The notes beneath the pieces were generated by a model. That model was given only the letters and a program-made list of their open reading frames with translations, was not told where the DNA came from and did no database searches. A program made the translations under genes and the position numbers. From Brachycybe producta (Eukaryota > Arthropoda > Diplopoda > Playtdesmida > Andrognathidae): 64,000 bases of DNA. Numbering within the stretch: position 1 is the stretch's first letter; each line of letters starts with the position of its first letter. Shown piece by piece: positions 3,715-36,203 of the stretch. The stretch covers positions 2,060,501 through 2,124,500 of the forward strand of contig JAUPFP010000029.1 in NCBI GenBank assembly GCA_036925085.1, read 5' to 3'.

Positions 3715-3870
3715 AGTCTTATTATAAACTAGAAGTGTAAGCGAATGTTTAACTTTGAATCATAAAGAAATAAATAAAGTTAAAAATAAACTTTTTATGG
3801 CGGTTTGAAAAAATGTTCACATTCTGAACCCTTTCAAACTACCATAAAGTTTATTTTGAAAGATACTTCG
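3715..3870. repeat. Family B, reduced copy
   Basis: Holds only the inner arms: AAAATAAACTTTTTATGG and ACCATAAAGTTTATTTTGAA around a short centre, with AACTAGAAG on one side. Confidence 0.55.
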
Positions 3871-4638: not shown

Positions 4639-4749
4639 CAGATACAATGACCCCAGGACCCCGAATTCCACAACCGAGGCGTCGACATTATCTTTTCTAA
4701 TGTCGACGCCTCGGTTGTGGAATTCCGGGTCCTGGGGTCATTGTATCTG
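4639..4749. repeat. 52-bp near-perfect GC-rich palindrome with 7-base loop
   Basis: The arm at 4639-4690 (starting CAGATACAATGACCCCAGG, ending GAGGCGTCGACATTA) is repeated inverted at 4698-4749 with one mismatch, at the CCCCGAA/CCCGGAA position. The loop is TCTTTTC. The arms are 28 of 52 G/C, far above the surroundings. There are no TIR-like ends or target duplication, and no second copy in the window. Confidence 0.9.
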
Positions 4750-7547: not shown

Positions 7548-7873
7548 CTGTTTTGAACGCAAAATTCCTCGCCACTCTCAAAACAAAATAACTACTGTCA
7601 GCAAAAGAAGTAAAACACTAGTTAAGTCACACAATGTCGTAAAGTTGATTAAATGATTATTTTTTTTTCCTCCGACTACTCTTGCGGTGAAAATTTAAGG
7701 CTCGTATTGGTTCCCTTTTTTCTTTACAAATGTTCTACAGATACGTGACCGAAAAAAAAAAAGGTCACCTAGTATTCTGTTGTCCTAAATGCTCTTTTGC
7801 AGGAACTAAGTGAATCTGGAAAAAAAAACGAAAATCAACCATGTAATAAAATCATCACACTTAAATAACCTTA

Positions 7874-8404: not shown

Positions 8405-8717
8405 TTAGGATCTTATGAGATAAATTGGATGTATGTTTTTTGAACTACAAACCTCACTTAAAATAACCCAACTATCACTCTCACTCTGTACCCTCAAACG
8501 AACTACGGACAAGAGTTCGCTCGACGCCGGCACGAGTGTGTCTTGTGCTAAACCAGCATCGTTGAATCGTCCAATTACATAGAATCCGTCTGGTGTCATT
8601 GGATAGACGGAACCTAAAGTAGAAATGGCCGATACGTTGTTCTTTGGAAGGACTTCGACGCTCGTATTATAGAATTTGTCGTTGGGATGTTCGACATTTC
8701 CACTGCGAAACAAAAAA
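8405..8717 (-). CDS. MGAT4: MGAT4 coding segment 11: end of lectin-like domain and stop
   Basis: 313 nt including TAA at 8405-8407. Encodes [20 protein letters not shown] (an NTS sequon lies inside), then [14 protein letters not shown] and WVILSEV, and runs on to [13 protein letters not shown] before the stop. The family normally ends a few residues after the ILSE/ILNE motif. A usable donor (GAG|GTTTGT) occurs right after that glutamate at 8453, and no AATAAA is obvious for the next several hundred bases. The true last exon might therefore lie further left. Confidence 0.9.
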
Positions 8718-11700
8718 CTACACAAACACGAAATGTGAATTAGAATAAAAACATATAATTACTAGAATTGAATAGAACGTTATAAAATTGTATTTCAATA
8801 TTGTGATATTTGAAACTAGAAGAGTAAAGGGAAATAAATTAATATTAAGTCATAATATGTCATTCCTATATATGTTGACCAAAAACCGGTTTTAAAACCG
8901 GTTAAAAAACGATATTATTTTAGTTTTTGTCTCAAAAAGTTTATTTTGAAAGATAAGCGTTCGTATGAACGTAAAGTGAATCAGCTACCCATTCTAGCTT
9001 ATAATACAATTTCTCCTTAGTGTTGTCTCTTCTGAAACTCCAGTATAACCAGAGTTTTAAAATCAACTGTTCGTAAAACGTCTTAAAAACTGAAAAAAAA
9101 ACAGTACTTTGTAAGAAAGAAAGATGAAAACGAACCTCTCCAATTCAATTGGTGGAGTCAGTTCAAATGTGACGGTATCACCAGCCTGTGGTAATAGGCC
9201 CCAAAAGAAAGTTTCTCCCTTGTAAGCTTTCTCCATTGTGTGCGTTTTATAAGGCTTTAGAATGGTAGACACTTTTGCTGGAGGATTACTGTGTGGAAAG
9301 TGGAGTGGAACCTTTCCAAATTGTTTATCCTTAAATAAACAAAACGCCAACAACAAAATGCTAATTTAGAAAAATCCTTACACATGTTTAACAACACGAT
9401 TTTCTTTTAAATAAATTCTAACTTAAGATAGTTCCATATTTGAATTCTCATCACAGTATAGCGTCTTTAAGCAAACGTTTTTTCTCCTCAGAATAAACAA
9501 TATAAAGAAATTAAAATTGTTTTATAAACTAGAATAGTGAATAATATTCCTAGAAGCATTTTCAAGGTATCTTTCAAAATAAACGTTTTATTTCAGTTTG
9601 AAAACCTCCAAAATATTTTTTTTTGTTAAAAACGGATCATTTTCAAACTACTTATAAAATGTTTACTTTTTAAGATATTACTATAAAAAAAACTTTTAGC
9701 AAACTCTTTTACCATTCTAGTTTTGTAAACAATTTGAATTTTATCATAATGTTTTTTAAAAAAAAGTTTGTTTAATGTTTATGCGACCCAAAAAATACAT
9801 ATGAAGCGACCTTTCAATGTAGCTTTTACCTTTAATTTTTGTACTTTCCCTCTTAAAGAGGAATGTGTTCCAATGTGTTGAAAAAGAGATGGTTTATAAT
9901 GGACCCATAGAGCATCTTTAGCTTTTCGGCAATGTTTCTAAATATTTCGAAAAATTACATAATAAAAAATAAATCCAGATAAAAAAACAAACAGGACGAA
10001 TAAAAAGACAAGAACGAGAAAACACAAGAATTTAAGATTTACAAGGAATCACGTTAAATGTTTAAATTTAATTAGAAATTATATTGTAATTGATTGATGA
10101 TGTGATATCATTTTTATTTGTTTGAAAACAAATTAAATAATTTGCGAAGAACTGTGGGTGCTGCCAGTCAGTTCGATACCATCAAAATGCCAATCGTGTA
10201 ATATTAAGAGAAACAAAAATGCATTTATTTCAATAATAATTATATGGTGCTTTTTTAAGCTTGCAATGTTAGTAATTTTCTATATACGATATACAAAGCA
10301 AATAAATGAAAATGCAATAAAAGTAAACTAAAAACCTATTCTATCTATGCTTTTACATCAATAACTAGAGGCAAAAAGTACTTAGTGCAATTAAACAATT
10401 TTCAATCTTAGTTTCTCTGTAGACCTACATCCCCATAAATAGAAAGTTCTTTAAGGTGCAATCGAAAACTAAAACCTTTATGCTGTAAAGGAATCTAGAA
10501 GAGTGATATGGCGCCACCTCGTACAATTCTCACGCCTCTTCAAAACAATTTCCGGATGTTCTTGCTTTTGGTATTATCATCTCAAATATGAGACCATCGA
10601 AGGCTATTAGTGTTACACATATCGCACCTCGGCTGGAAGCGTGGCACAAGTAAAAAAAAAGTTTTTTTTTGGGGGGGGGGGAATTGAGATTAAAGTTGCA
10701 TTTTTTTCTATCTCAATCTATTGTAGGGGAGCCAAATAAACCCATATCGTGAATAGTCAAAACAGTTTTTGCACTTGAAAAGCTCAGCAAAGTAAGCCAC
10801 AAATGTTCTCTTAACTTTAAACTCATTTTCCCAAAAAAGTGGTTTGAGTTGTGCCACTGTTGCGGAGATGCGATATACCCATTCTTAACAATAGGTTTTT
10901 CACACTAAAGGTCTCCATATTCAATTTAACATCTCAAGAAAGCAAACATGAAATAGATGCCTGCTTTCTGAAGAAAAGTAGGAGGAGCTAGTATTACACA
11001 TGTTGTTTCCAAATGCTACTTTTCTGTTTGCTTTACAGAAGAAGAAAAAAACTTTTCCTTTAGTTTTCACTTCAGTTTAGAAAATTTGTAACTGTCAATT
11101 GCACTTGACAAAAATTGTTTAAACAAATTAGGAAGACTTCCAGCAACATACAAATATATAACAGCATCAGAATTTTCTCTTTATTGAGAAAGACAACCTT
11201 TTGTGTCAATCACACATACTGATGATGTTTATGTCGAGATACAACAGGCAGTCATTGAAATCTTCAAAACTGAAGAATAAGTCCTCTCCACCCCCTCCCC
11301 CTCTTTCTCTTTTGTTATGTATTTCACTCACAGCATTTCAGAAAATGTTTCATATCAAAACCACCGAGAATTAAACCCTCTTCTCTTCGTATTATTATTC
11401 GTGCCATTACTCTGCATGTGCAAAAAAAAATGAACAGCTGTTGCATTTCACACAATGCAAATGCAATGTAAAATTCCTCTTTCTCTCTCTCTCTCTCTCT
11501 GTCCATGTAATTACTTGATAAATATTTCAAATATAAACATCCTCCTAAATTAACATATTTTTTTAATGTGTTTGTCCATAGCTTAATTGCGAAAAGAGTG
11601 ATGACGTGTAATGAAATTAAAAAAAAACATGGTAGTAGTTAATATTTATTAAAAATAGACGTGCCAAAAATATAATGTGACCAAGTGCATCTTTGGCTTT

Positions 11701-14700
11701 TTAATGTCCAGAAACACACACACAAGCTGGAGAAAAATTAATAAAAGTGAATTTGGTGATAAATTCTGGACAATTTGGTACACTGACCCGAAAAAAAATT
11801 TAAGAGACAGTAATTAGACCTTGTTTTCAAAAAAAGTGACATGAATGACGATTGCCTTGCTAATGCTTATTATAAGCTTAGAAAAACCACTTTTCATCAA
11901 ATATTAATTTATCTCAATTCGTTGTATCACATTTCAACGCTTACGAAGAGGAGAAAAAAGCCACGATTGCAGCCATAACCGTACAACTTTTGGTTCCTTC
12001 ATTTTTCCGCTAGGAACCAGCTAGCCAGCTGCACGTGTTATCATGGCGTTTTTCTCCTTTTTTGAGCGTTCAAATGGAAATACCAATAAATTGTGAAATT
12101 AGGCTAATTTGTGTTTTCTTAACCAAGAGAGATGTTTTTATTGTAATTAAGACGTTAAAAACATTTTTAAAAGTGATTTTTATAAGACGAGAATAAGCAT
12201 TAGCAACTCAAGCACCATCTATGTCACTTTTCTGAAAACAAGGTCTAATTATAAGTCCTTAAAGAAGTATACGAAAACTTTACACACGCACACAACAGCA
12301 ACATACACATACCACACTCATGTCAAAACGGCAGACTTGTGTGCGTAGAATATCGTCAATTAACCAGTCACAAGGTTTGTCATTGTAGAATATGAGCAGG
12401 AAATTGATGATGTTCGGTAGATCTGTGCTCTTCACCATTTTACCTGAAAACCAATTAATACGGTGCCAACCGTCAAAACAACAAAAACAATGCTTATTTT
12501 TCTTAGATGGTTGGGATTAATTAATCAGACTTTTAAGATTTCGTTTCTCCTACTCTAAAATTCCTTTCTCTCCTTTACTCGACAAAGTTCAAAATAAAAA
12601 GCTTTTCGCAAAATCGATAATTGTGAGAAAACATTCAAAAAATGTTCCTCGAAGTCATAATCTGAATGGCATTTTGTTGGCAACAATACAAACAGCAGCA
12701 GCAACAACAGCAGTAGAGAGTAGCAGCAGCAGCAGTAGTAGTAGTAGTAGTAGTAGTAGTAGGAATTAAATGACAAAATATAAAAATATTTTATCATGTT
12801 TAAAGCAAGTGTGATTCTTTGTAGTATATATTGAAGGCAAAATAATAGACCAATCACAAGAAAGTTTAAAAGTCGGACAAAAATGGACATACCACATCTT
12901 TGTCTAGACTACACACTTTAGTCTGTATCAAATGATCCAATAGCCAATCAACAGGCTTGTCATTGTGAAACATTATAAAAAACTGAACCAACATTGGCAG
13001 TTGAACACATTTAAACATCTTTCCTAAAAGAGATATAAAGATGGACAGTGGTCAAGCACTACATATGATTTATCATCGAAGGACCAACTCGTTTTATTAT
13101 CAACTCTCGAAATCATTCGAGGGTCAAAACTGAAATAAAAAGATCAAAGCTGCTATAAAAAAGCACTCACTATAGCACAAAATGAACAATTATTGACCAA
13201 AACACACAATATGGCACTTTCTAGCACATATTTTTAAAATATTCAAGGTCTAAAGCAAAATTTGCAGCATTTAAAAAGTGTAAAAGCCTCTCGAACACAT
13301 TGATTATTCTGTCTTTCCGCAGCAAAATGAAGAGTAATTTGAAACTTACAAACTAGAAGGATAGGCTCAATCACTTAAGGGTATTTTTATGTTGCTATCT
13401 TTAAAAATAAACTTTTTCTTAGTCAGTTTGAAAATGATCCAAGCAGATAATTTTTTTTAAAAAAATGTTATCTATAAAAAGTTTATTTTGAAAGACATCC
13501 ACATTATGAAAACAACCATTAATGTAATGATTCCGCTACCCGTTCTAGTTTCTAAGACAATTTCAATTTCTCCTTAATGTTGCTCCTGAAACGCAGAACC
13601 ATCTGTTCATAAATCCATCCTAATCGAAAATTTGAAGGCTAAATCAAAAACAATAATAAAACAACAACAAATAATAAATATAATAACAATAAGGAATTGA
13701 TTCTTCATAAAATTGTGACCTTTATATTACTGTATAATAAATAATAATAATAATAATAATAATAATAGATGCGTACTCACCAATGAAACCTAATTGGCAA
13801 AAATCCAATATAAACCAATCGTGTTTTTCACTGATCTTCTGCAATGCAAACTTTTTCATTGTACTCAAGTAACCCTGTTTTGTTAAAATGTCATCCTCGA
13901 GCTACAAACAAACAAAAAAAAAATAACAAGAAAAACCAAAAAGTCACTTCTTTCATTCCGTACCAAAAAAAACCACACTAAGAGACACCTCGAAAAAATA
14001 TCTAACTCTGCTCATTGGAAGTGAAATTTAGAACCACATATTAACTAGAAAAGTAAAGATAAATCATGTAAAAAAAATTCACTGTACAATATCTTTCAAA
14101 TTAAACGTTTGGAGTTCGAAAATTATATTACTCACATTAATTATTCAATTTTTAAAAGTTAAAAGTTTTAGAAAATTTCATAAAATATTTAAATTTTGAA
14201 CGATATCATTAATTGCAAAAACTACTTTACTATGATATCCTTTTATCCTTTCTAGTTTCTTAAACTATAAACACTAACAGCTTTGGCACACGAACCACTT
14301 TTTAGTGGTCGAGTTCGACTACAAAATGGCGTCTTTTCATACCAATGCATTGCAACCATTGTGATAACATTTTGTAGTCAAACTCAACCACTAAAAAATG
14401 GTCCATGTGCAACGGCCTCAGGCTCAGGATGCAAGAAACTGAATATTCAACTGAAACTCTTTTCAGAGGGCTCAAAGTTGAAGTTCACGTGTCACTTATT
14501 GACTTTGGGGAAGGGGGGCTACATTTTTTTTAATAATAAACTTCCGATGAGCATTCTAAAACAAATAAAAAGCATTATTAATAATATTATTTACCTGTAT
14601 GTAAAATGTTCCTTTTGCTTGAGCATACATCATTAAAAATGCAAAATCAAGATTCTGTTTAGTCCTCCATCTTATTTTTTTTAATAAAAAGAAAGAAAGA

Positions 14701-17700
14701 CGAAAATAAACAAAAATTTAGATGAAAATAAATTTAATGAAATTTGAAAACAACGAAAGAATTTAAGAGAAAAAACAAATGAACTCTCAAAACGAACTTG
14801 ACTCGATCTTTGGAATCTCCAAGTGTCAGTCTTAAAGTGTCAAAATCAGGATAAAATCCTGCGGGAGGAGCGACAACTTCCAACAAACCAGTTGCTATGT
14901 GTTCCTGAAACCTAAAATTTAGTAAAATTCAAAAACAAACATAAATAAATCACTTCTGTCCGATCCAAATGAAGCTGACAAACGTGCAATAACATGAGTT
15001 CGAGACAAAAAAAAACAAATAAAATGCCAGAAAAAGCAGATTTTGTAAACAAAACAAACCTGAAACAACTGTCAGAAATACTGAAGACAAAACCACAACA
15101 CATTTGTGTGACACAACACAAACAAAATTGGGTTTTGTTTTTGTTTCTATAGCTGTCCTACGTAAACTACGCAACTTTTTTATTGTTTAATATTAACTAT
15201 TTACACTACACAGACAAGAGTTGACAAAATGTTGCATAATATCGAAACAAAACAAAAACCTTTTGATGTTTACCGACATGCGGTGGGACATGGAAATAGT
15301 TTGCAAAATTGCAGACCAAAACGAAACACAAAAGTCGCAGAAATATTTTAGAATTGTCGCCAATTTGTCTCGAAACACTGTTTTGTTTGCATTTTGTCAG
15401 CTTGATGTAGAATTGGGGCAATTATAATTGAAACAAATTTGGAATATTCTCAAAGAAAGATTTCAGATTTCATTACCAAAGGATTAAGTACTACTTTAAA
15501 AATTAAGATATAATCAATTTTGGATGTGGGGTGATGATCGAGGGTGGCGGAAAATTTAACAGGTTGGAATTAATTTGTGAAAAACAAGGTTTATTTATGC
15601 TTCTAAATTAAAAATTAGCAACAATTTCGCTAATTTGAAGAAAAGAGGTTGTGGGGATTTTTAATTTGAAAAAAAGAGACGAAAATTCCGCCCCAATTTT
15701 TGCTGTTTTAATCTGTTTGAGTGTGAATTTAACCACCTGGATCAGCTCAGAGGGGGAAGAAAAAAAGGATGAGAGTATTTAAATCAGTACTAAAAATAAA
15801 ATTAATCTCATTATGTCACACAGACAAAATTAAATCTATTGGGAGGGGATTTTGTACTTTTAATTTGAAATATAGTTGTTTTTGTCACACCCTAAGAGCC
15901 TTTTCACACGAATCACATTTAGCGGTCGAGTTCGACTGCAAAATGTAGTCGGCTTGGCGTCAAAACTGACCATTCGTTCACTCAATAATACTAGGACCAC
16001 TTTCTAACCACTGCAGTCGGCTCGAAATTGTCAGTTCTGACGACAAGCCGACTACATTTTACAGTCGAACTCGGCCACTCAAAAGTGGTTCGTGTCTAAA
16101 TAAATGGTCTTAAGTTTGTTGCAACAAACGATTCGTTAAGGTAGTTTTAAAATGCAAATGCTTCTCGAACTCTTGATTATTCTGTCATTCAGGTGCAAAA
16201 TAAAGAAAAACTTGAATGTGTTTTAAAAACTAGAAAGGGTAGCTCAATCACTTAATGATAAATTTCATGTTGCGTATCTTTCAAAATAAGCTTTTTATAT
16301 AAGTTTGAAGAAAAAAATGACCCAACTTTTTAAGTAGATGACATTTTAAATTTTGTGTCTATAAAAAGTTTATTTTGAAAGATATCAACAAGAAAAGTAA
16401 CTCTCTTAAATGATTGAGTTTAACCTTCTAGTTTTTAAAACACTTTATAGTTTTTCTTAATCTTGCTCTTCTGAAAGACTAGAAAGAAGAATAATCAAGA
16501 AATCGAAAGTAGTAAAGAATTGTTTCCTAAAAAAAAAGTGGTAGCAAAATTAAACGCCACGATAACTTATTATTATCCAGATAAAAACGACAAAATAATG
16601 AAAAGTAGTTATTCTAATTGTCGTGAGGTGGCGCAAAACAAAACTAATTAATATAAATACCCCCCCCCCCCCCCATTTTGACTACTTTTTGTTGAGTTTA
16701 ACAGCAAATTGGGAACAAAATAAACACACCCAGATAATTACAAAACACACACACGGAACAAAATTACTTAATTTTCGTTAAAACAGTAAAAAAAAACCTT
16801 AAAGCATTTAAAAGAAAATAAATAATGTGAGGAGAAAAAGGAAGAAAGCGTTTATATATGCAAATTAAGCTGTTTTTCGAATCATTAGAGCTTCAATTAG
16901 TTTCTGTTCAATTAGAAAACAAACAAAAAACTTACAAATTAAAAAAACAGTTTAATTTTGAATAGATTTTCAAATACAATTATTTGAACGCCAATTATCC
17001 GAATCATTATTTTTATTTATTTATTTTTAAGTACAATGAAAACCAAAATTAGATGTTCGCGAACCACTCGGGAACTGTTCGAGAGCTGCTCGCGAGCATA
17101 ATGTATACACCAACAAATTAGCGTGTTTGCGTTCTCATGGCGAACAACTCTCGAGATGTTGTTTGTTAGTTCGTCAAGAGTTCGCGTTTTATTAAAGATG
17201 GCACGACAAGCTCACTCACGTCTAGACCGGATTCTCTGTTTGGCAGATGTTAGAAAACGAACAATTCGATGTACCGCCTAAAGAGCGAACTTTGTACCGG
17301 TTCGCGAACAGCTCGTACTGTTCGCGAGCTCTCGTCTAAACCGGGTTCCGTTTCTGTTCGCGAACTGTTCTACAACGGCTTGCGAGCTTAGTCTGTACGC
17401 GGCTTAAGATGATTTATGAACAGCTGATTTTCGAACAAATTAAAAGAAACTAGAAATTGTTTTAGAAACTAGAAAGATAGCTCAGCACAAACTTAAGTGT
17501 ATTTTCATGTTGATATCTTTCAAAATAAACTTACAGCAGTATATCGTAGGCTAAGCTTAAAATCGAATCAGTTTCAAACTTACATAAAAAGCTTATTTTG
17601 ACAGATATCCATCTACATTGAAAATACGCTTAAATGAGTGAACTTTCAACTATATGCCTTTCTAGTTATTAATTTAAAAGTTTTTTTTAGTTTTTACTAT

Positions 17701-18012
17701 TAGTGTTATAGTAATATTGTTTTTTGTTTTTAGTTCTAAAAATGTTTTACTTTTCCATAATCCAACTATCCTAAATTTCGAATAATCATCACCACCAATT
17801 AAATAACAAATTAATTCGGATAATTGGCGTTCTAATTACTGTCATAATTTTACTTGTTATTACTTACTGTTTTTGTATTTCTTTTGCTTGACTGTGAACG
17901 TAATTTGGCTCAGTCTGTAATAAGACAACAATAACAATAATTAAAACCTACTTTATTTATTTTTATATAAATTTTGACAGAAATCACAGAAAAGAAGAAA
18001 AAAAAACAATCA

Positions 18013-27000: not shown

Positions 27001-30000
27001 CAAAGGAAAGATACCCAAAATAAGAACAATGTAACACTGTCATTTATGTTGTACTAACTTTCTTCCACCTGAAATCAATAAACTTATCAACAAAAAAAAC
27101 CTGTCAACTTGGTTTTTGTCTTTTTTTATTTCCCCTTTAAAAAAATATGAATTCATTACATATCAAAAGGGTGGCTACAGACGATCAATTCTGGCTTGTC
27201 AGAACCAGGTTTTCTTAAATCCTAGATTGTCACAGTTCAAAATCACCATAGACGTTCACAAACCCATTCCTGTAATTTTCATTTGGTGTTCTTTTGAAAT
27301 TGTTATTTGGGCAGAATCTATTTTTTTTACCTGTTAAGCTAATTACTAGGGTTCGGATTTGTATGCAATAAAAATATAAAAGTGTATGTCAATTATATTA
27401 CGGTATAAACAAATGTTACATTTTTGTCAGCACAAATTTTATTTCAATTTAAGAGGGCTCCATAGAAAAATACTTGTGTAAACTGCAAGGTAGATGGCGC
27501 CTGCAACCTCCATTAGGTGACAAACTACACTCGCCAATTAGTTGAATTAAAATGCAGCCTTTTAGCTCTAAAAGCGTCCAAAACAACCTTAAATTATCAG
27601 CACGTTAACAAGCTTATACCCAGAACATAATTAAAGTGAAGCGAGCACGTGTAGAAATAGCGACGCAACTTAAAAGTTTGCCACGTGAAAAAAATGGAAG
27701 GTGATTCATAATTGAAGAATTGCAGTACATTTATACAGAGGAGGGCTAGTGGCGCCATCTAACGCTTCAGCGGACAAAAGTTAAAACTGCAATTAAAAAT
27801 TAAAAAGGAATGTATTTTCTTCATTTCTCTTTTCTCATTTGAGAAAAAGCAGGCATTTTAAAATTTTAATTGCAATTTAAATTTGAAATAAAAATTGTAT
27901 TTAAAAAAACCACAACGACTTACAGTAGTTTACAAGCCAATATAATAAAGATATAATTAACTAATAATTTTCTAAAAGAAATGACGTCACTTACCTCAGC
28001 AATGAAGACAATGATAACACAATCATCTCGTTCTTCCTGACTCATATTCTCGATGAGATTTTGCAAAGTGGTCATCAAGTAACTTTGAATGTCTCGTTTA
28101 ACAGTAGGAACACCGAGCACCATAGAAACTAATTAATTAGACACAAAAAAAAAGCAACCAACATAAAGATGATGAAGACACATTTTATCGGAAAAGATGA
28201 TGACATATGGAAGGAAGATTAACTAACAACAGCTGCCGTAAGGAAGGGGGTCGTATTCTTTCTTAATGATTCCTTTAATTAAGTCAAAGGTGGTGCTCAA
28301 ACTCATCAACATTTATTAGGATGTTTCAAGTAAAAAAAAGTTGATGCATTTAGCTCTAGCTTTGACTTTAGCAATCATTAAGAAAAAACAATATTTAGCT
28401 CAAAGCTAGTCATAAACGATGAGATGCAATCTGCAGACAATGTCTGTCCTTAAAATGAATGCCAACTCCGATATACTATGAGACGATAGCTTTTAGCTAA
28501 ATATTTCTTCGTCTCTTCCTTAATGGTTGCTTATTAAGTCAAAGGTGATACTAAAACTCATGAACCGTTCAAAGAAAGTTGATGAGTTTAGCTCCAGCTT
28601 TGACTTAGCAATCATTAAGAGTAGAGATGGGACATTCAAATCCCGCGAATCTTGAAAAATATTCGAGATTCGAAAACTCGAATCTTCACCGCTTTTTTCG
28701 TTTTTTGAATCTTTCGAATCCTAATCTGAAAAAACTGTTAATAAAATTTTGGTAAAATTAGTTTTAACTCCATTGACGTCCAATAGAAGCTTTGACTAAC
28801 AAACTGTTTATTATTAATAATTATAATTTAATATTTAATATTATTTAATTGATTTGTTTCTTCTTAATGAATAATACAGGATTCTTATTATGAAGGATTC
28901 GAGAGATTCGAGAACCTTTTAGGATTCGTCCCACCTCTAATTAAGAAAGAGAAAAGAAATATTTAGCTCAAAGCTAGTCATACACTATTATGAGACATAG
29001 TCTTCAAACACGGTCTTCCACAGACAAGGCCAGTCATTAAAGTGAACTATGCTTCTTCTGTCTCACAGACCCGTTTCCAAACCCTCAGACACTACGAGAT
29101 AAACGGTGCAATTCGGTCTGCAGACCGTGTCTCATAGTGTATTTCTGATTTAAGAAGGTTATAATTAAAGATGGACCTCCCACCCAATCAGATACTGGAA
29201 GAAAGAAAAAAAAAGAGCAGTGTAAACATTGCAATCCAGCTGAGTTTTTCTTTTTTAATCCAGATCTCAAAAGAAAGAAACTAGAAAAAGCAATCGGAAT
29301 CAACTTGCACAAATATTGTCTTAATATTGGGGGTCTTTTTTTAGAAGAAAATAACACAAAAGAAATAAAACTACGAAGAAGAAGAAGACAAAAAAAGAAG
29401 GAATCAATGAACAGCCGAGAAAAAAAATATCAAGAACGGTTCAGTGAATCTTTAAGCAAAAAAAAAATCCCGTGGTTAATATTGGGTCTCATATTTATAA
29501 CCCTCTTTTCTAGCCTCTCACCCCCTCTTCCTCCTCTTCTATTTTTTTTGTCTTCACAACCTAAACTATAAAAAAAATAACCAAACAGATATAAAAAGAC
29601 ATCAAAAAATAATAACGATAAAAATCGATTCGCATTTTGTTCAACAAAAAATATTCTATGTTTTTTTTGCACTATTTTTCTTCTTCTCATATCTAGAATA
29701 AAAATATGAAAAACTTATTCAAAATTCAAGAGAGAAAAAATTACTAAGATTGCGTGAAAATACGTGAAAAAATAATATTCTTAGTGAAAGGAGAGGCTTG
29801 TAACTATCTTAAACAATTCCATTTCAAAACGACGACGAGAGTTGGAGGTAGAGGCTAAAAATATTAGAGGTTGATGCAGAATGCAAGACCAAAATAACAT
29901 CCTCAAGACTCCACACCACCAGCTTATATTCTTATACCTAGTACACACCTGATAGATTAAACGCATTTAAATAATAAACGTGTTCTACAGAGGCCTGTGA

Positions 30001-32025
30001 AGGGCAAACAAACAATATGTCATCGAATTCAATTTATTCAGTTAATTAACTTAAATGTAATTTATATAAACTATTGACAAAATATATTGATTTAGTATTT
30101 CAATTTAAAAAATATTAATAATAGTCAATTTTTATTTGGTTCATGTCCTTAACTGGATTCCGTAATAATTCACCTATAAACACATTTAATTTGAATTCAT
30201 TTAACTCATGTGTGTACAAGTAATAATAATACCTTATCTACACCTAAAAAGTTAAATGCATTTAAATATTAAACATATTCTACAGAGCCCTATTAAGGAC
30301 ATATGTCAAATTCAATTTATTCATTTAATATCATCTCCATTTATTGTGTTAATAGAGTGATTCCCAAATGGGGTTCTGTGACGAGAAAGTACGGATTCTG
30401 CCAGCTGGTTGATCACTTTCATTGAAATTAACTGTTTACACTGTTTGGTTGATTCAAACGCATTGATCAACATAGGATACCTGTGTAAACTCGCCTTAAG
30501 ACCTACCGATAATACACAAAAGCGTTGCTAGCCTCCACCTACAACCCTTGTCGGCTGTTTGCAATGAGAATCGTTTGAGATGGAACATTTCGAGGGAAAT
30601 CTCAACCCTTTTACTCGAAAAAGGGGATGGGAGGGGGGTGGGAGGAGCAACACCAAAACACATCATAAAAAGGTCAGAAAATTTTCACATCAATGTTTTT
30701 TTTTGTGTCCACTTCAATTCATAAATTCTTTCACCTCAGAAGGTGAACAAAGGTTTCAAAATCAATGAGGCTTTTGAGAAAATGAAAAACTCTGGTCAAA
30801 TTTGTTTATATGGAATTGAGAGAAATGGGCTGATGAAAAGTGACGGAGGTCAACACAAAGCCAACTTTTTTTCTTCTAAAATTGAAAAATCATTTCAGAA
30901 ATAAAAAAAAAGAATCAATAAATCAATAATAAGAAAAATCACAAGTGTTGATATTTAAAGAATAATAAGAAGTGTGGAGAAGAAAAAAAAATCTTACCTC
31001 CCGTTCGCCCCCTGGCTAATTTGTAGGCAGGTTGGAGGCCATAAGGATTTCCCAAGAGGTATGGGAGGTAGTGATAGATAGAAGGAAGTTGCAGGTCAAG
31101 ACTTCCTGTCATGTTTACTAGTAACTGTTGAGTTTCACGCGAAAGGACATCACGTCCTAACCATCCAGATCCATTTCCGGCCATGGCCGCTTTCAGAAAG
31201 AAACAGAAATTATTAAAACACTCGGAAATAAAATGAAAACCAAATTGCTGAAAGTTTCTTTTTTTTTTAAAAAAAAAAAAAAAAGGTTTTACATCCTGTT
31301 GACAGGCAATCACTGCATACACATACTGAGTTTCCTCTTAAAAATCGTATTCTTAAGATGATTTTCGAACTCTTGATTTATTCAGTCTTTCCCAGAGTCC
31401 ATTTAAGAGAAACAAGTGTTTTAGAAACTAGAAGGATCGCTCAATCATTTAAGGATATTTTCATCTTTTAAAATAAGCTTTTTATGTCAGTTTGAAAATG
31501 ACTCAATTTTAAGCAGATGACGCTTAGATATTTTTTTTTAAATTTTTGTCTATTTTGAAAGATATCAACGTGAAAATAGCCTTAAGTGATAGAGCTACCC
31601 TTCTAGTTTCTACTTTTTAGTTTCTCTTGATTGAGACATTTTCACTTTTAAGACCACTTTTCGATTGCAAAATGAAGTCGAAGGTGGTTGGGTTGCGGTT
31701 GCAATGTATTTTCTATAGAAAGGCTCAAAAGTGGTCGGTTTTGGGCGACAACCTCACTTCATTTTGCAGTCGAAAAGGCTTTAAAAAGTGCTCTGTGCTC
31801 TTTTTCAGGAGTTTCAGCACTACCTTTGACTTACAGTAGAAATCATTACGAATACAACCCTTTAACAATAAAATCTTGTGACCCTTTACTAACTTACTAT
31901 CTAACTAGTTCTAAATTTCCAAATACCCCTTCTTTCCAAGTCAGTAAACCCTAACAAAATCCAGGATCACGTTGAATCTTATAAGCTTCAAGCTTTGTCG
32001 TCATATAATGAACCTTCGAATAATA

Positions 32026-34307: not shown

Positions 34308-35382
34308 GAAAACCACGAACTATATTAAGAGTTGTAACCAAAGAACTTAACCCTAATGGTCAACACACAAAAGGGACACACAAATAGCCTCAATATACCA
34401 CACATGTTATAATAGTGTATTTTAACCTTAATAACAGTTTTAATGAACGTTGTTTTGATCCATAATGAAGTTAAACCATAGATAGAGAAGCAAAAAAAAA
34501 ACCGGCCCTCCTCCAAACGAACATTATGAAATAATGTGGCCGGCAAACTGAAGATAATAGTTGCTGCTGCAACTGACCAACACTTACAACTTAGATCCAA
34601 ATGACCAGTGTTTCAGACTAATAACATATTATGGTTTGGGAGCAATAAAAAGAAGATAATTTTATCAGCTAAACAATGAAGTTCCAACCCCAAAAGCAGG
34701 CAGGCAGTAGGAGCTTATTATAATGACCACCAAAAACAAGAACCATTTTCATAGATATTTACGGGTCAAGTTTTTCCCTCCACATTTGTCCATCCATTAT
34801 TTTCTCTGATCAAACAAGGGCAATTAATATAAATTGCAATTGCAGCTAAAGTGCTCAACAAAATGTCGGCTATAAAAAAATTAAATAAAAATCGTATTCA
34901 ACTTTTATTATTCCGATTTTCTTTTGGGATTTTTGTTGTGATTTTTAATTATTTTTTTGTGTTTTTATTTATTTTTTGTGATTTTTTTTATTGATTTTTT
35001 GTGAATTTTATTTATTTTTTTGTGATTTTTATTTGTTTTTTATTTATTTTTTTGTGTTTTTATTTATTTTTTTGTGATTTTTTTTATTTATTGTGGTTTT
35101 TATTTATTTTTTTGTGATTTTTATTTATTTCTTTGTGATTTTTATTTATTTTTTGCGAGTTTTATTTATTTTTATGCTTTTTTATTTATTTGTGATTTTT
35201 TTGCGATATTTACAGTATATTTTTTATTATTTTTCTATAAGTACCTTGATTTAAAACAATGTTAAACTGTTGTCTCAAAAGAAGAACATCTTTTCTTCGT
35301 TCCTGATTAAGCATTTCCGAATGATGTAACCGTTCTCGAAGTTCTGCAATTTTATGTTGAAGTATTTGTTCTTGACTCAAAT
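8405..35382 (-). CDS. MGAT4: MGAT4-type N-acetylglucosaminyltransferase IV (GT54), 11 joined coding segments, N-terminal exon not included
   Basis: Enzymes of this family are Golgi type II membrane proteins. They transfer GlcNAc from UDP-GlcNAc in beta-1,4 linkage to the alpha-1,3-mannose arm of N-glycans, opening the branch that gives tri- and tetra-antennary glycans. I joined exons 35245-35382, 30998-31189, 27995-28128, 17868-17914, 14798-14911, 14595-14670, 13781-13901, one of 12893-13023 or 12313-12443, 9830-9937, 9136-9329 and 8405-8717. All have GT/AG borders and matching phases, giving one frame of about 522 residues. Vertebrate MGAT4A/B are about 535-550 residues, so only the short cytoplasmic tail and anchor are missing. 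Family landmarks in order are a coiled-coil stem, [19 protein letters not shown], DKPxDWL, PSLFQH, the THSSL stretch, NPPAKVST, RSGNxEHP and a WVILSE end. Introns are long and full of fold-back repeats. I cannot say whether it is the A-like or B-like paralogue. The identification is from remembered family sequence, not a search. Confidence 0.95.
8925..9085. repeat. Family B, half copy between MGAT4 exons
   Basis: AAAGTTTATTTTGAAAGATA, TCTAGCTTATAATACAATTT and AAATCAACTGTTCGTAAAAC form a single arm. The opposite arm is missing. Lies in the intron between segments 10 and 11. Confidence 0.6.
9136..9329 (-). CDS. MGAT4: MGAT4 coding segment 10: C-terminal lectin-like domain, first part
   Basis: 194 nt. 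Begins [13 protein letters not shown], then the [13 protein letters not shown] stretch, [19 protein letters not shown] and [10 protein letters not shown]. It corresponds to the C-terminal beta-sandwich that in GnT-IV binds terminal GlcNAc and helps substrate choice. Donor GAGAG|GTTCGT leaves two bases. Confidence 0.94.
9505..9735. repeat. Family B copy in MGAT4 intron
   Basis: Both inner arms around AAAACGGATCATTTTC, bounded by AAACTAGAATAG and CATTCTAGTTTTG. Lies between segments 9 and 10. Confidence 0.6.
9830..9937 (-). CDS. MGAT4: MGAT4 coding segment 9
   Basis: 108 nt, phase 0 at both ends. Encodes [20 protein letters not shown] then [16 protein letters not shown], the family's K-H-C-D-R and PSLFQHxGxHSSL region closing the catalytic domain. 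The acceptor is ATATTTAG and the donor AAG|GTAAAA. Confidence 0.94.
9938..12312. other. MGAT4 intron between 8b and segment 9
   Basis: No third version of exon 8 was found. A box with GATATGGCGCCACCTCG near 10507 resembles the family E GGCGCC box. The stretch 10900-11540 has no recognised element apart from (CT)n. Confidence 0.6.
11803..12262. repeat. Fold-back element, AGACCTTGTTTTCA ends
   Basis: TTAGACCTTGTTTTCA...AGTGACATGAATG, GCTAATGCTTATT on the left and AATAAGCATTAGC, CTATGTCACTTTTCTG, AAACAAGGTCTAATT on the right. The centre holds GGAACCAGCTAGCCAGC. Lies about 50 bases downstream (gene sense) of exon 8b. Confidence 0.7.
12313..12443 (-). CDS. MGAT4: MGAT4 coding segment 8b: second of two duplicated (mutually exclusive) exons
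   Basis: 131 nt. The acceptor is TTTTCAG and the donor GTG|GTATGT, the same donor as segment 8a. It encodes [20 protein letters not shown] then [20 protein letters not shown] and MSV. My count is 20 of 43 residues identical to segment 8a, with no gap. The D-K-P-x-D-W-L core and the T-x-V-C end are kept, so it looks selected as protein rather than decayed. It uses the same neighbours, segments 7 and 9. Confidence 0.9.
12700..12765. repeat. AGC/AGT trinucleotide microsatellite
   Basis: Mixed CAG-type and TAG repeats in the 449-nt intron between the duplicated exons 8a and 8b. Confidence 0.9.
12893..13023 (-). CDS. MGAT4: MGAT4 coding segment 8a: first of two duplicated (mutually exclusive) exons
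   Basis: 131 nt. The acceptor is CTTTTAG and the donor GTG|GTATGT. It encodes [20 protein letters not shown] then [20 protein letters not shown] and KDV. It is the copy nearer in sequence to vertebrate MGAT4 (M-F, DKPxDWLLDH, KVC). Entry phase is 1 and exit phase 0, so the exon is not a multiple of three. It cannot be added to its sister or skipped without shifting the frame. Spacing to segment 8b is 449 nt. Confidence 0.92.
13320..13625. repeat. Family B copy in MGAT4 intron
   Basis: Both arms present, with GCTCAATCACTTAAGG on the left and GCTACCCGTTCTAGTTTC on the right, ending ATCTGTTCATAAATCC. Lies between segments 7 and 8a. Confidence 0.75.
13738..13768. repeat. (TAA)n microsatellite
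   Basis: About ten uninterrupted TAA units ending just before the donor of MGAT4 segment 7. Confidence 0.95.
13781..13901 (-). CDS. MGAT4: MGAT4 coding segment 7: metal-binding E-D-D motif
   Basis: 121 nt. Begins [20 protein letters not shown]. The E-D-D takes the role of the DXD motif that binds the divalent metal and UDP-sugar phosphates in GT-A enzymes. It continues [13 protein letters not shown] and ends with one base (G). The donor GTGAGT is close to consensus. The next exon must therefore supply two bases to complete glycine, which both duplicated exons do. Confidence 0.95.
14035..14425. repeat. Family B copy followed by family D fold-back
   Basis: 14035-14280 carries degenerate B arms (AACTAGAAAAGTAAAG and CCTTTCTAGTTTCTTAAAC). 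14283-14425 is family D: GGCACACGAACCACTTTTTA, GTGGTCGAGTTCGACTACAA and their inverses around CATTGCAACCATTG. Both are in the intron between segments 6 and 7. Confidence 0.65.
14595..14670 (-). CDS. MGAT4: MGAT4 coding segment 6
   Basis: 76 nt. Encodes [17 protein letters not shown] and KGTFYIQ, nearly identical to the [17 protein letters not shown] signature of MGAT4A/B. Acceptor TTTTTTTAATAAG is split with a lysine codon from segment 5; donor CAG|GTAAAT ends in phase 0. Confidence 0.95.
14798..14911 (-). CDS. MGAT4: MGAT4 coding segment 5
   Basis: 114 nt. Encodes [16 protein letters not shown] then [19 protein letters not shown], the conserved GLLEV-x-x-PP and YPD region. The donor is TCAA|GTTCGT. 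Two AGs lie 7 nt apart at the acceptor (exon starting at 14911 or 14904). Only the upstream one keeps the frame with the microexon and keeps the FQ residues expected from the family. Confidence 0.93.
14950..15425. repeat. Imperfect fold-back, about 475 bp
   Basis: ATGAAGCTGACAAACG...GAGTTCGAGACAAA at 14970-15010 mirrors TTTGTCTCGAAACAC...TTTGTCAGCTTGATG at 15364-15407. The ORFs found in this stretch on both strands are explained by the inverted arms. Confidence 0.5.
15895..16110. repeat. Family D fold-back, good copy (family description)
   Basis: CCTTTTCACACGAATCACAT, TTAGCGGTCGAGTTCGACTG, CAAAATGTAGTCGGCTTG on the left and the same blocks inverted on the right to GTGGTTCGTGTC. Flanked by TAAG motifs. 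The family resembles a short inverted unit that repeats AAAATGAAGTCG / CGACTTCATTTTGCAG. Confidence 0.75.
16136..16512. repeat. Family B, near full-length copy
   Basis: Left arm GAACTCTTGATTATTCTGTC...CTAGAAAGGGTAGCTCAATC; right arm GAGTTTAACCTTCTAG...GAATAATCAAGAAATCG. It abuts the family D copy, with TTAAGG between them. Confidence 0.8.
16987..17835. mobile_element. Pogo/Tigger-like inverted-repeat element carrying two nested fold-backs
   Basis: TTGAACGCCAATTATCCGAAT at the left and ATTCGGATAATTGGCGTTCT at the right form TIRs of about 20 bases of the pogo/Tigger kind. Inside are a fold-back at 17048-17405 (GTTCGCGAAC, GAGCTGCTCGCGAGC and inverses) and a family B copy at 17404-17700. No transposase ORF is present. 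It lies next to the MGAT4 microexon. Confidence 0.55.
17868..17914 (-). CDS. MGAT4: MGAT4 coding segment 4: 47-nt microexon
   Basis: A very short exon with strong borders (TTATTACAG acceptor, CA|GTAAGT donor). It encodes [15 protein letters not shown] plus two bases that complete a glutamine with the next exon. Its phases (0 in, 2 out) are exactly those needed between the IAE end of segment 3 and the FQEH start of segment 5. The product aligns with the T-D-x-x-Y...I region of vertebrate MGAT4. It lies about 20 bases downstream (gene sense) of one end of a pogo-like element at 16987-17835, which sits in the following intron. Confidence 0.88.
18014..18062. repeat. (ATC)n and (ATTC)n microsatellite
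   Basis: About eleven CAT/ATC units followed by CATT units. Confidence 0.95.
18992..19282 (+). CDS. Unassigned 96-codon ORF, weak thrombospondin-1-like look
   Basis: An open frame beginning [20 protein letters not shown], with VKC, SSCFE and LCLKNC downstream and ending [20 protein letters not shown] followed by ...R-x-V-x-C recalls a TSP type 1 repeat, and the end could start an Ig-like strand. The first cysteine and WxxW motif of a TSP1 module are absent, and no good acceptor or donor is seen. It is richer in GC than the flanks and not part of a recognised repeat. It may be an exon of a nested gene on the opposite strand to MGAT4, a decayed fragment, or chance. Confidence 0.2.
   Translation: MTLQVAKKACGRGTNVQWRHVKCIVKTQKMSKPNNNYNSISSCFELEGVDPNVLITTGGYKSFNLCLKNCFERYYTVVIQPPQVTIIGAQNTTVFW
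20505..20760. repeat. Family I repeat, plus orientation
   Basis: Contains GCATCCTACATTTCTATTCC, GATCATTTCTACAGAAACAC, CACGCCCACTCCGAATTGGC and GTCTTGTCTTGCAGACGTCA. The same blocks occur inverted at 60380-60640 and in part at 59990-60165. The GCATCCTACATTTC box is itself repeated at 20530 and 20715. Confidence 0.7.
22185..22260 (-). CDS. Possible terminal exon with poly(A) signal inside MGAT4 intron
   Basis: A strong acceptor (TTATTTTTTAG) is followed in phase 0 by [15 protein letters not shown] and a TAA at 22213-22215, then AATAAA at 22185-22190 and a T-rich stretch. The lysine-rich end looks like the tail of a nucleolar or RNA-binding protein. In phase 0 it could also be spliced to MGAT4 segment 3 as an early-ending isoform without most of the catalytic domain. 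A second frame, in the other entry phase, is also open and would end in an acidic tail. No other exon of a separate gene was found nearby. In AT-rich DNA such a pattern can arise by chance. Confidence 0.3.
23555..23670. repeat. Family C central hairpin
   Basis: GTTTAGAGGTTAGAGTTCTC and GACTTTTTAGCCTCTAAACA. Directly followed by family B. Confidence 0.6.
23685..23975. repeat. Family B copy
   Basis: Begins TTAAGATGGTTTATGAACAG and has both arms, but a shortened centre (ACAGACAGG). Confidence 0.75.
26014..26223. repeat. Family A fold-back, intact copy (family description)
   Basis: Family A runs ACAGGCAATTAGAAATCG, GCTCCGCCCTTTT, ATGACGACCGGCAACTTCTA, ATTGGTTTGTTGTGTGGTTC then inverted blocks with AAGGGCGGAGCATGTGACGT, closing with AATTGCCTGT. 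It is about 200 bp with no coding capacity. Flanking CGTAAAAG / CGTAGAAG looks like a diverged target duplication. Confidence 0.85.
27349..27420. repeat. Family C end fragment
   Basis: GGGTTCGGATTTGTATGCAATA followed by diverged sequence. No opposite end. Confidence 0.4.
27447..27775. repeat. Family E repeat, copy 1
   Basis: Starts TAAGAGGGCTCCATAGAAAA, then GCAAGGTAGATGGCGCCTGC and ends GGGCTAGTGGCGCCATCTAA. The GATGGCGCC boxes are inverted between ends. Closely matched by 41989-42322. Confidence 0.75.
27995..28128 (-). CDS. MGAT4: MGAT4 coding segment 3: start of GT54 catalytic domain
   Basis: 134 nt. Reads [11 protein letters not shown], then [18 protein letters not shown], then CVIIVFIAE, which is the first beta-strand and nucleotide-binding region of the family. 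The donor is a consensus GAG|GTAAGT and the exon ends in phase 0. The intron after it is about 10.1 kb, the longest inside the secured part of the gene, and carries the possible alternative terminal exon at 22.2 kb. Confidence 0.93.
28232..28640. repeat. Fold-back elements with AAGTCAAAGCTGGAGCTAAA arms
   Basis: TTAATGATTCCTTTAATTAA and GTCAAAGGTGGTGCTCAAAC at 28262 are mirrored by TAGCTCTAGCTTTGAC...GCAATCATTAAG near 28350. A second, similar pair runs 28508-28620. Between them are ATTTAGCTCAAAGCTAGTCA blocks repeated at 28958. Confidence 0.6.
28621..28945. repeat. Family F element, copy 1
   Basis: Ends AGAGATGGGACATTC / inverse (TCGTCCCACCTCT), sub-terminal GCGAATCTTGAAAAATATTC and GATTCGAGAGATTCGAG. 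It interrupts the repeat at 28232-29000. A second copy lies at 38985-39358. Confidence 0.7.
29940..30232. repeat. Family H repeat, inverse partner at 46803-47112
   Basis: CACACCTGATAGATTAAACG, CAATTTTTATTTGGTTCATG, CCTTAACTGGATTCCGTAAT and ACTCATGTGTGTACA occur inverted near 46.8-47.1 kb. A shortened direct copy follows at 30241-30335. Confidence 0.7.
30998..31189 (-). CDS. MGAT4: MGAT4 coding segment 2: stem to catalytic domain junction
   Basis: The donor is GGAG|GTAAGA and the acceptor is CTGAAAG. The segment has 192 nt, entering in phase 1 and leaving in phase 1. It encodes a linker with two N-glycosylation sequons (NGS and NMT), then [14 protein letters not shown] and [13 protein letters not shown], the conserved lead-in to the GT54 domain. 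The mature frame depends on the split alanine codon made with segment 1, so the ATG seen just inside the exon is internal methionine, not a start. Confidence 0.9.
31352..31632. repeat. Family B copy
   Basis: TTAAGATGATTTTCGAACTC at the left with both arms. Runs straight into a family D copy. Confidence 0.7.
31633..31800. repeat. Family D fold-back
   Basis: AAGACCACTTTTCGATTGCA, AAATGAAGTCGAAGGTGG and inverse to CAGTCGAAAAGGC...AGTGCTCTGTG. The ORFs here are read through the repeat. Confidence 0.7.
32340..32675. repeat. Family Y repeat, copy 1 (family description)
   Basis: Family Y is about 330 bp with short TIRs (GGTTTACACATGC / GCATGTGTGATCC) and inner blocks ATCAGCCAATAGGAATGCGT and GAACGCAAAGAAAAGCAGAA. 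Unlike the others it has no long fold-back arms. Confidence 0.65.
32820..33065. repeat. GA-rich microsatellite region
   Basis: Repeated GAGA tracts broken by short unique stretches. Similar (GA)n/(CT)n tracts at 5920, 11480, 18672, 18745, 32021, 51905 and 58045. Confidence 0.9.
33250..33690. repeat. Fold-back element with TTAAGCCTCGTTTTCACG ends and many ACTATC boxes
   Basis: TTAAGCCTCGTTTTCACG at the left and CGTGAAAACGAGGCTTTAA at the right, with TTAA at both borders. The inside is built of repeated ACTATCAC, GATAGTTG and GCAACTATC boxes in both orientations. Confidence 0.75.
33728..33965. repeat. Family D fold-back
   Basis: TTAAGAGCCGTTCACAGAAG, GTCGACTGCGAAAAATGGTG and a diverged inverse arm ending CGTTTGTGAAC. 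Confidence 0.6.
34268..34303. repeat. (TAA)n microsatellite
   Basis: About twelve uninterrupted ATA/TAA units. Confidence 0.95.
34915..35215. repeat. Tandem TTTTTATTTATTTTTTTGTGA satellite
   Basis: About 14 units of roughly 20 bases (TTTATTTATTTTTTTGTGAT and variants) in a row, ending 30 bases from the donor of MGAT4 segment 1. On the minus strand it is an A-rich tract early in the following intron. Confidence 0.9.
35245..35382 (-). CDS. MGAT4: MGAT4 coding segment 1: stem coiled coil
   Basis: The acceptor is a T-rich tract ending TTTTTTAG at 35383, and the donor is CAAG|GTACTT. The segment starts with two bases of a split codon and ends with one. It encodes 45 full codons in a heptad-like, charged helix ([10 protein letters not shown] then [12 protein letters not shown]), matching the luminal stem that follows the membrane anchor in MGAT4 proteins. 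The upstream exon must end in phase 1. The in-frame start codon just upstream of the acceptor lies in the intron and is probably not used. Confidence 0.85.
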
Positions 35383-36203
35383 CTAAAAAACAGTACAAAA
35401 AAAGAACAATGAGATTTTATTGATTACCTTCATTATAATCATCATCATCATAATCATCAAAGTGTTAAAAGAACTATCATAAAAAAAATATTACAGAATG
35501 CTGCAAACACAATTTTACGTTTCATTTTAGAAACAATTGTAATAAAAAAAATAAAGACAAAAAAACGTGCAAAAGATAACAACAAAAAAATGAGAAATTC
35601 ATTTGATTATTTTGTTAATTTATTGAAAATCACCTAACGTGTGTTTTTAGATATTTCTTTTTTATCTAAAATGAACATAAGAGGATCTTTTTTGATCAGA
35701 AAGAAAAAAAACGCCTACCAATTACGATAATTGACTTTTACATTGTCTTTCTTAGCTTTCTTTTAATCTCTTTTACTTTGAACTCATACAATTTTAGATA
35801 TGAGAAAGAGATAAGAGAGAGATGCAAGTCATTAAGCCATGAACTTAAAAACACCCTCAGAAAGAAAAAAAAAAGCTTTTAAAATATTTATAACAACCAT
35901 TTTTTTAGTGTTTTAGGCTCGGTTTTTAGCTTTCTTGTAATCTCAAGTAATGACAACCATATCAGTTTTGAAACATAGGAAATAAGTGTCTACAGTTATC
36001 TTGCACAGAGATATGATTACACTATTTGTCAACTCAAGATTACTGACTAGGATATGTTAATGTGTTTGCAGCAGAGAGTTCTGATTGGTCCACTGTGTTA
36101 TTCCAGCTAAGATTTATTAGAGAATACATTACTCTTAAAGAACTTTAAAAGGCTTTTTATTTAAATAACCTAACCATATGAAATGCCTTTAGTTGTCATT
36201 AGG

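Follow-up and report, generated by a model that had tools for sequence, protein, structure and literature searches.

A putative pair of mutually exclusive exons in the catalytic segment of an MGAT4 gene of Brachycybe producta

GnT-IV sets N-glycan branching. The MGAT4 gene discussed here lies on the minus strand of a 64,000-nucleotide stretch of the Brachycybe producta genome, hereafter the window, and carries two similar exons, 8a and 8b, side by side within the part encoding its catalytic domain. This arrangement, first pointed out in an earlier note made from the DNA letters, raises the question of whether one gene yields two glycosyltransferases by splicing in either one exon or the other, and if so, how old such a switch might be.

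Gene model and geometry of the exon pair

We located the exons by tblastn with MGAT4 sequences combined with splice signals (Table 1) in an assembly of 295 Mb and 442 contigs. This gene model covers the stem region, the catalytic domain and the lectin domain; the initial exon, which holds the membrane anchor, was not found by this approach. With either 8a or 8b in place, the spliced form reads through 476 residues from the partial start devoid of any internal stop and matches the Pfam families MGAT4_cons and MGAT4A_C. The catalytic domain (PF04666) scored 365.2 bits with 8a and 359.9 bits with 8b at a cut-off of 51.5, and the carboxy-terminal lectin domain (PF23524) 158.1 bits at a cut-off of 42.9, both far above threshold in both isoforms. 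By its domain content the gene is thus MGAT4 (GnT-IV, GT54, ABD subgroup), as the earlier note had proposed. Exon 7 encodes LEDD, comprising the EDD metal-binding motif, and the GlcNAc-binding Tyr, Trp, Asp and Trp of the lectin domain are present in the model when compared by eye with the motifs given in PMC12616123, the middle letters of two of these motifs being different. The closest named relative among the matches listed was Chamberlinius hualienensis with 74% identity, a millipede according to the accessible part of PMC12671775, and two other best protein matches listed showed 78% and 71% identity.

Table 1 Features of the MGAT4 gene and of a second GT54-like reading frame; positions refer to the window except in the last row.
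Feature	Positions	Strand	Basis and remarks
Stem coding exon	35243..35383	minus	tblastn; edges approximate
Coding exon, stem region	30998..31189	minus	upstream edge inferred
Coding exon with GVPTVKR (motif 1)	27995..28128	minus	gene model
47-nt coding exon	17868..17914	minus	gene model
Coding exon ending GDSKDRVK	14798..14911	minus	gene model
Coding exon, motif 2 region	14595..14670	minus	gene model
Exon 7, LEDD metal site to GFI/G (first half of motif 4)	13781..13901	minus	splice signals, model
Exon 8a, 131 nt	12893..13023	minus	splice signals and frame; entry phase 1, exit phase 0
Intron separating 8a from 8b, 449 nt	12444..12892	minus	splice signals
Exon 8b, 131 nt	12313..12443	minus	splice signals and frame; same phases as 8a
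Exon 9, KHCRKAK...HIGTHSSL (motif 5)	9830..9937	minus	splice signals, model
Exon 10, linker and lectin domain start	9136..9329	minus	gene model
Exon 11, lectin domain	8453..8717	minus	gene model
Last coding exon with stop	7765..7815	minus	gene model
Second GT54-like ORF	G000:C6:7386364-7387059; L005:1486-2223	minus	PF04666 profile search

A PF04666 profile search of the assembly returned eight matches, seven of them exons of the MGAT4 gene and one a divergent intronless reading frame on another contig. The latter represents a second GT54-like gene of the same genome, encoding 245 amino acids with LEDD and QPVDFL and diverging from MGAT4A/B.

The geometry described in the earlier note was borne out by the sequence in full, including the equal length, the spacing and the shared phases of the two exons. 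The acceptors read TTTTAG for 8a and TTTCAG for 8b, the donors GATGTG/GTATGT and AGTGTG/GTATGT (the slash marks the boundary), respectively, and exon 7 ends in ATT G, giving the entry phase of both. Translation yielded the peptides KMFKCVQLP...DKPVDWL...CSLDKDV for 8a and KMVKSTDLP...DKPCDWL...CRFDMSV for 8b, which align ungapped with 20 of 43 residues identical (21 of 44 counting the junction Gly) and share DKPxDWL and TxVC, again as first described. Their similarity exceeds chance in a tblastn comparison within the window (E = 3e-14), where no third copy was seen (next best matches E = 0.2 for 8b and 1.0 for 8a).

Checked on the sequence, the reading frame is lost when both exons are included and likewise when both are skipped. 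Joining 8a to 8b leads to a stop at the fourth codon read in 8b, exactly as had been claimed, and skipping both gives E T L P K S followed by a stop; the early TAA of the earlier note is there, but as codon seven, with six sense codons before it and not seven. The proposal that the pair is frame-locked, with one exon usable at a time, thus holds on the sequence. Exons 8a and 8b are very probably a pair of mutually exclusive exons within one MGAT4 gene, which would yield two Golgi enzymes differing in a 44-residue segment.

How exclusion might be enforced was addressed at the level of RNA pairing. The 8a–8b intron is not short, and the donors of the two exons are alike. A long-range pairing is predicted on the minus strand between 12712-12663, within the 8a–8b intron, and 10196-10150, within the intron preceding exon 9, at −45.4 kcal/mol, a value reached by none of 60 shuffles (best shuffle −44.8). 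A matching second arm of the docking/selector type was not found in this single sequence (20 of 60 shuffles were as low), and the pairing evidence for docking/selector exclusion is weak.

Several repeats were observed elsewhere in the window. A near-perfect hairpin at 4639-4749 consists of two 52-nt arms with 98% complementarity around a 7-nt spacer. Nested inverted repeats at 1044-1243, of 55 nt (1060-1114 with 1156-1210, 87%) and 29 nt (1044-1072 with 1215-1243, 90%), are perhaps a small palindromic mobile element. The 17-mer TATCTTTCAAAATAAAC is dispersed over positions 3849, 8939, 9568, 16368, 17514, 23815, 50326, 53342 and 58842, with five copies on one strand and four on the other and five of the nine in introns of the located MGAT4 gene model, and is probably part of a repeat family.

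Content of the exchanged segment and selection on both exons

The 44-residue segment starts inside the substrate-binding motif 4, GFIGKLF (PMC12616123, section 11), which is split across the junction of exon 7 and exon 8 (GFI/GKMF) and reads GFIGKMF in the 8a isoform and GFIGKMV in the 8b isoform. Mouse D313, designated as the putative catalytic residue in the accessible part of PMC9296478, corresponds to the Asp in P(V/C)DWL, inside DKPVDWL of 8a and DKPCDWL of 8b. In the predicted structures of both isoforms the segment forms a strand and two helices, with pLDDT values of the block in the range of 81–93. The earlier note had spoken of differing helices beside the active site; the prediction retains two helices and sharpens this picture, as the segment would also include the putative catalytic Asp and a strand bearing half of motif 4. 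The GnT-IV structures found among the sequence matches cover the lectin domain only.

We compared the codons of the two exons as well as their conservation across arthropods. The differences between 8a and 8b over 44 codons number 20 at the first, 6 at the second and 29 at the third codon position, and so few second-position differences never arose in 20,000 random placements of the same number of differences. YN00 gave a dN of 0.52 and a dS of 1.59, the synonymous distance being saturated by NG86. For the protein level we assembled the best 120 of 1611 and the best 120 of 1522 matches into 143 distinct representatives, from which 46 aligned arthropod proteins were picked by hand, the window sequence excluded. 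Eleven of the 44 positions are invariant in these 46 proteins and 8b retains all 11, which has a chance of 4.6e-5 if its 23 changes were random. Motif 4 has a near-invariant Phe, found in 45 of the 46 proteins and substituted by Tyr in the other; in 8b it is Val, and because of this exchange a low activity of the 8b form is possible. Together, both exons look selected at the protein level.

Crustacean counterparts and age of the duplication

Among the 143 representatives of the matches listed, the residue preceding the Asp in KPxDWL is Val in 132, Ser in five, Cys in four and Gly in one, the segment being absent in the remaining entry. The four entries with Cys, as in 8b of the window, stem from Penaeus, Macrobrachium, Oratosquilla and Scylla. 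Macrobrachium is represented by two MGAT4A-like entries annotated as isoforms X6 (P0005) and X3 (P0016), which agree in the length of their longest contig (78,587,081). Apart from the amino terminus and a 23-residue insert, the two are identical over 301+38+160 = 499 compared residues and differ at 21 of 44 positions inside the exon-8 segment, where one is 8a-like and the other 8b-like. The search for both exon types in other species, suggested in the earlier note, thus found annotated isoforms that swap exactly the exon-8 segment. The additional 23-residue insert of isoform X3 appears optional, lies between the catalytic and lectin parts and is missing from X6. In the isopod Armadillidium vulgare (P0123) the exon-8 segment reads NDQPGDWLLSHF, on a very long branch (2.97) beside the malacostracan 8b rows.

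These data bear on whether 8b is still in use. If 8b were a relict copy that kept its frame by chance or past selection and is no longer spliced in Brachycybe producta, one could account for its long branch, its changed motif 4 Phe and the three nearest relatives among the matches listed (P0001-P0003), which all show 8a. An 8b form of P0001-P0003 was not seen among these matches, each of which represents a 90% cluster that could hide it; an 8b isoform departing from its 8a form by about 5% would as a rule be concealed in this way, and missing 8b elsewhere is no evidence of loss. Against a relict stand the open frame, the intact splice signals, the conserved second codon positions, the complete set of invariant positions and the 8b-type isoform annotated in Macrobrachium. 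As 8b is open, selected as protein and has a crustacean counterpart, the dead-copy reading fits badly and we regard it as improbable. Even less credit is due to the idea that 8b acts mainly as a switch-off, whereby double inclusion would give a stop-bearing mRNA lowering MGAT4 output and the 8b protein would matter little: the stop in 8b of the joined form is what such a device would need, but a pure poison exon need not hold a selected frame together with all invariant catalytic positions, and the 8b-type isoform annotated in Macrobrachium is full-length.

We then asked whether the window pair and the crustacean pair share one origin. In site patterns of window 8a, window 8b and Macrobrachium 8a with each of the four malacostracan 8b segments, 4–5 sites unite segments of the same exon type, no site unites those of the same species and 0–1 are crossed. 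A tree was calculated from 45 rows and 44 columns, comprising 42 of the 143 proteins, the two window segments and one human segment. The best tree groups window 8b, on a long branch of 1.39, with 8b-like malacostracan, isopod, barnacle and ostracod rows at a support of 84/90, not starred and with the bootstrap not settled. A duplication confined to malacostracans obtained a p-AU of 0.018. Uniting window 8b with malacostracan 8b and no other rows gave a tree that falls short of the best one (p-AU 0.326).

Separate origins, with a pair in use that arose independently in myriapods and crustaceans and with the 8b-like letters (Leu-Leu, Cys before Asp) being convergent, would agree with several observations. 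Raw identity reveals no close 8b link, as window 8b matches malacostracan 8b at 23–25 of 44 positions, some chelicerate and insect rows reach up to 25 of 44, and malacostracan 8b shares more positions with window 8a (26–27 of 44). Neither the grouping of window 8a with 8b (p-AU 0.115) nor that of all myriapod rows (p-AU 0.144) is rejected. Furthermore, the Arg-Phe of CRFD may be ancestral, because chelicerate rows share it. On the other hand, these myriapod-only groupings cost 10.6–18.3 log-likelihood units, and not one site groups by species versus 4–5 by exon type, making independent origins a minority view that nevertheless deserves some weight. The site patterns favour one ancient duplication, with 44 columns leaving room for separate origins, and we consider it likely that a single exon duplication preceded the split of the myriapod and crustacean lines. 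Since a prawn relative carries both versions, the switch may date back several hundred million years. Overall, the pair is real, looks functional and is probably ancient.

Proposed working of the switch and comparison with known systems

According to the proposed working, both exons would be spliced in Brachycybe producta, each mRNA taking either 8a or 8b between exons 7 and 9. The two resulting Golgi enzymes would differ only in the 44-residue strand/helix/loop/helix segment carrying the putative catalytic Asp, whereas double or zero inclusion would terminate translation several exons short of the end and probably lead to nonsense-mediated decay. With the metal-binding EDD motif in exon 7 and the lectin domain common to both forms, the swap would most likely alter acceptor choice or fit, or the rate of turnover, and the two forms may differ in acceptor or partner choice. 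As a tentative scenario, which we put forward with clearly less confidence than the shared duplication itself, an ancestral arthropod MGAT4 gained a second catalytic exon before the myriapod/crustacean split and kept two splice forms as enzymes that differ in rate or in the acceptor they prefer, so that splicing would do what MGAT4 gene copies do in vertebrates. If true, glycan branching could be retuned by splicing, beyond gene copies, through a switch shared with a decapod. The two forms would further provide a natural pair of active-site variants that differ next to the putative catalytic Asp and could reveal what sets the acceptor choice of GT54 enzymes.

Among the titles and abstracts listed from the open literature, a scope outside which most subscription journals and bioRxiv lie, no description of an exclusive exon pair in MGAT4 was found. 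A word search of the main text of PMC12616123 returned 'isoform' and 'mutually exclusive' zero times and 'splic' once. The sole paper found to contain both 'MGAT4' and 'mutually exclusive exon' is concerned with splicing in breast cancer, and MGAT4B comes up elsewhere in its text.

The gene resembles MGAT4A/B (GnT-IVa/b) in its PF04666 domain, its EDD, WR, GFIGK and H-x-G-x-H motifs, its carboxy-terminal lectin domain and its many exons (PMC12616123, section 11). Whereas MGAT4 diversity in vertebrates arises from gene copies, Brachycybe producta has one gene with two alternative active-site exons. A close parallel is the Macrobrachium pair X3/X6, known from database entries, in which the same 44-residue segment is swapped with 8a-like and 8b-like letters; 8b of Brachycybe producta is more diverged than the Macrobrachium 8b type and has Val in motif 4. 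Exclusive exon pairs that arose by tandem duplication are known, for example those reviewed in PMC9013439 and PMC6071210, and 8a and 8b resemble such pairs in being adjacent, homologous and equal in length and phase, with double use or skipping breaking the frame. What is unusual here is the location: the exchange affects the catalytic part of a glycosyltransferase of the Golgi, and, unlike in those pairs, the putative catalytic residue of such an enzyme lies within the alternative exon.
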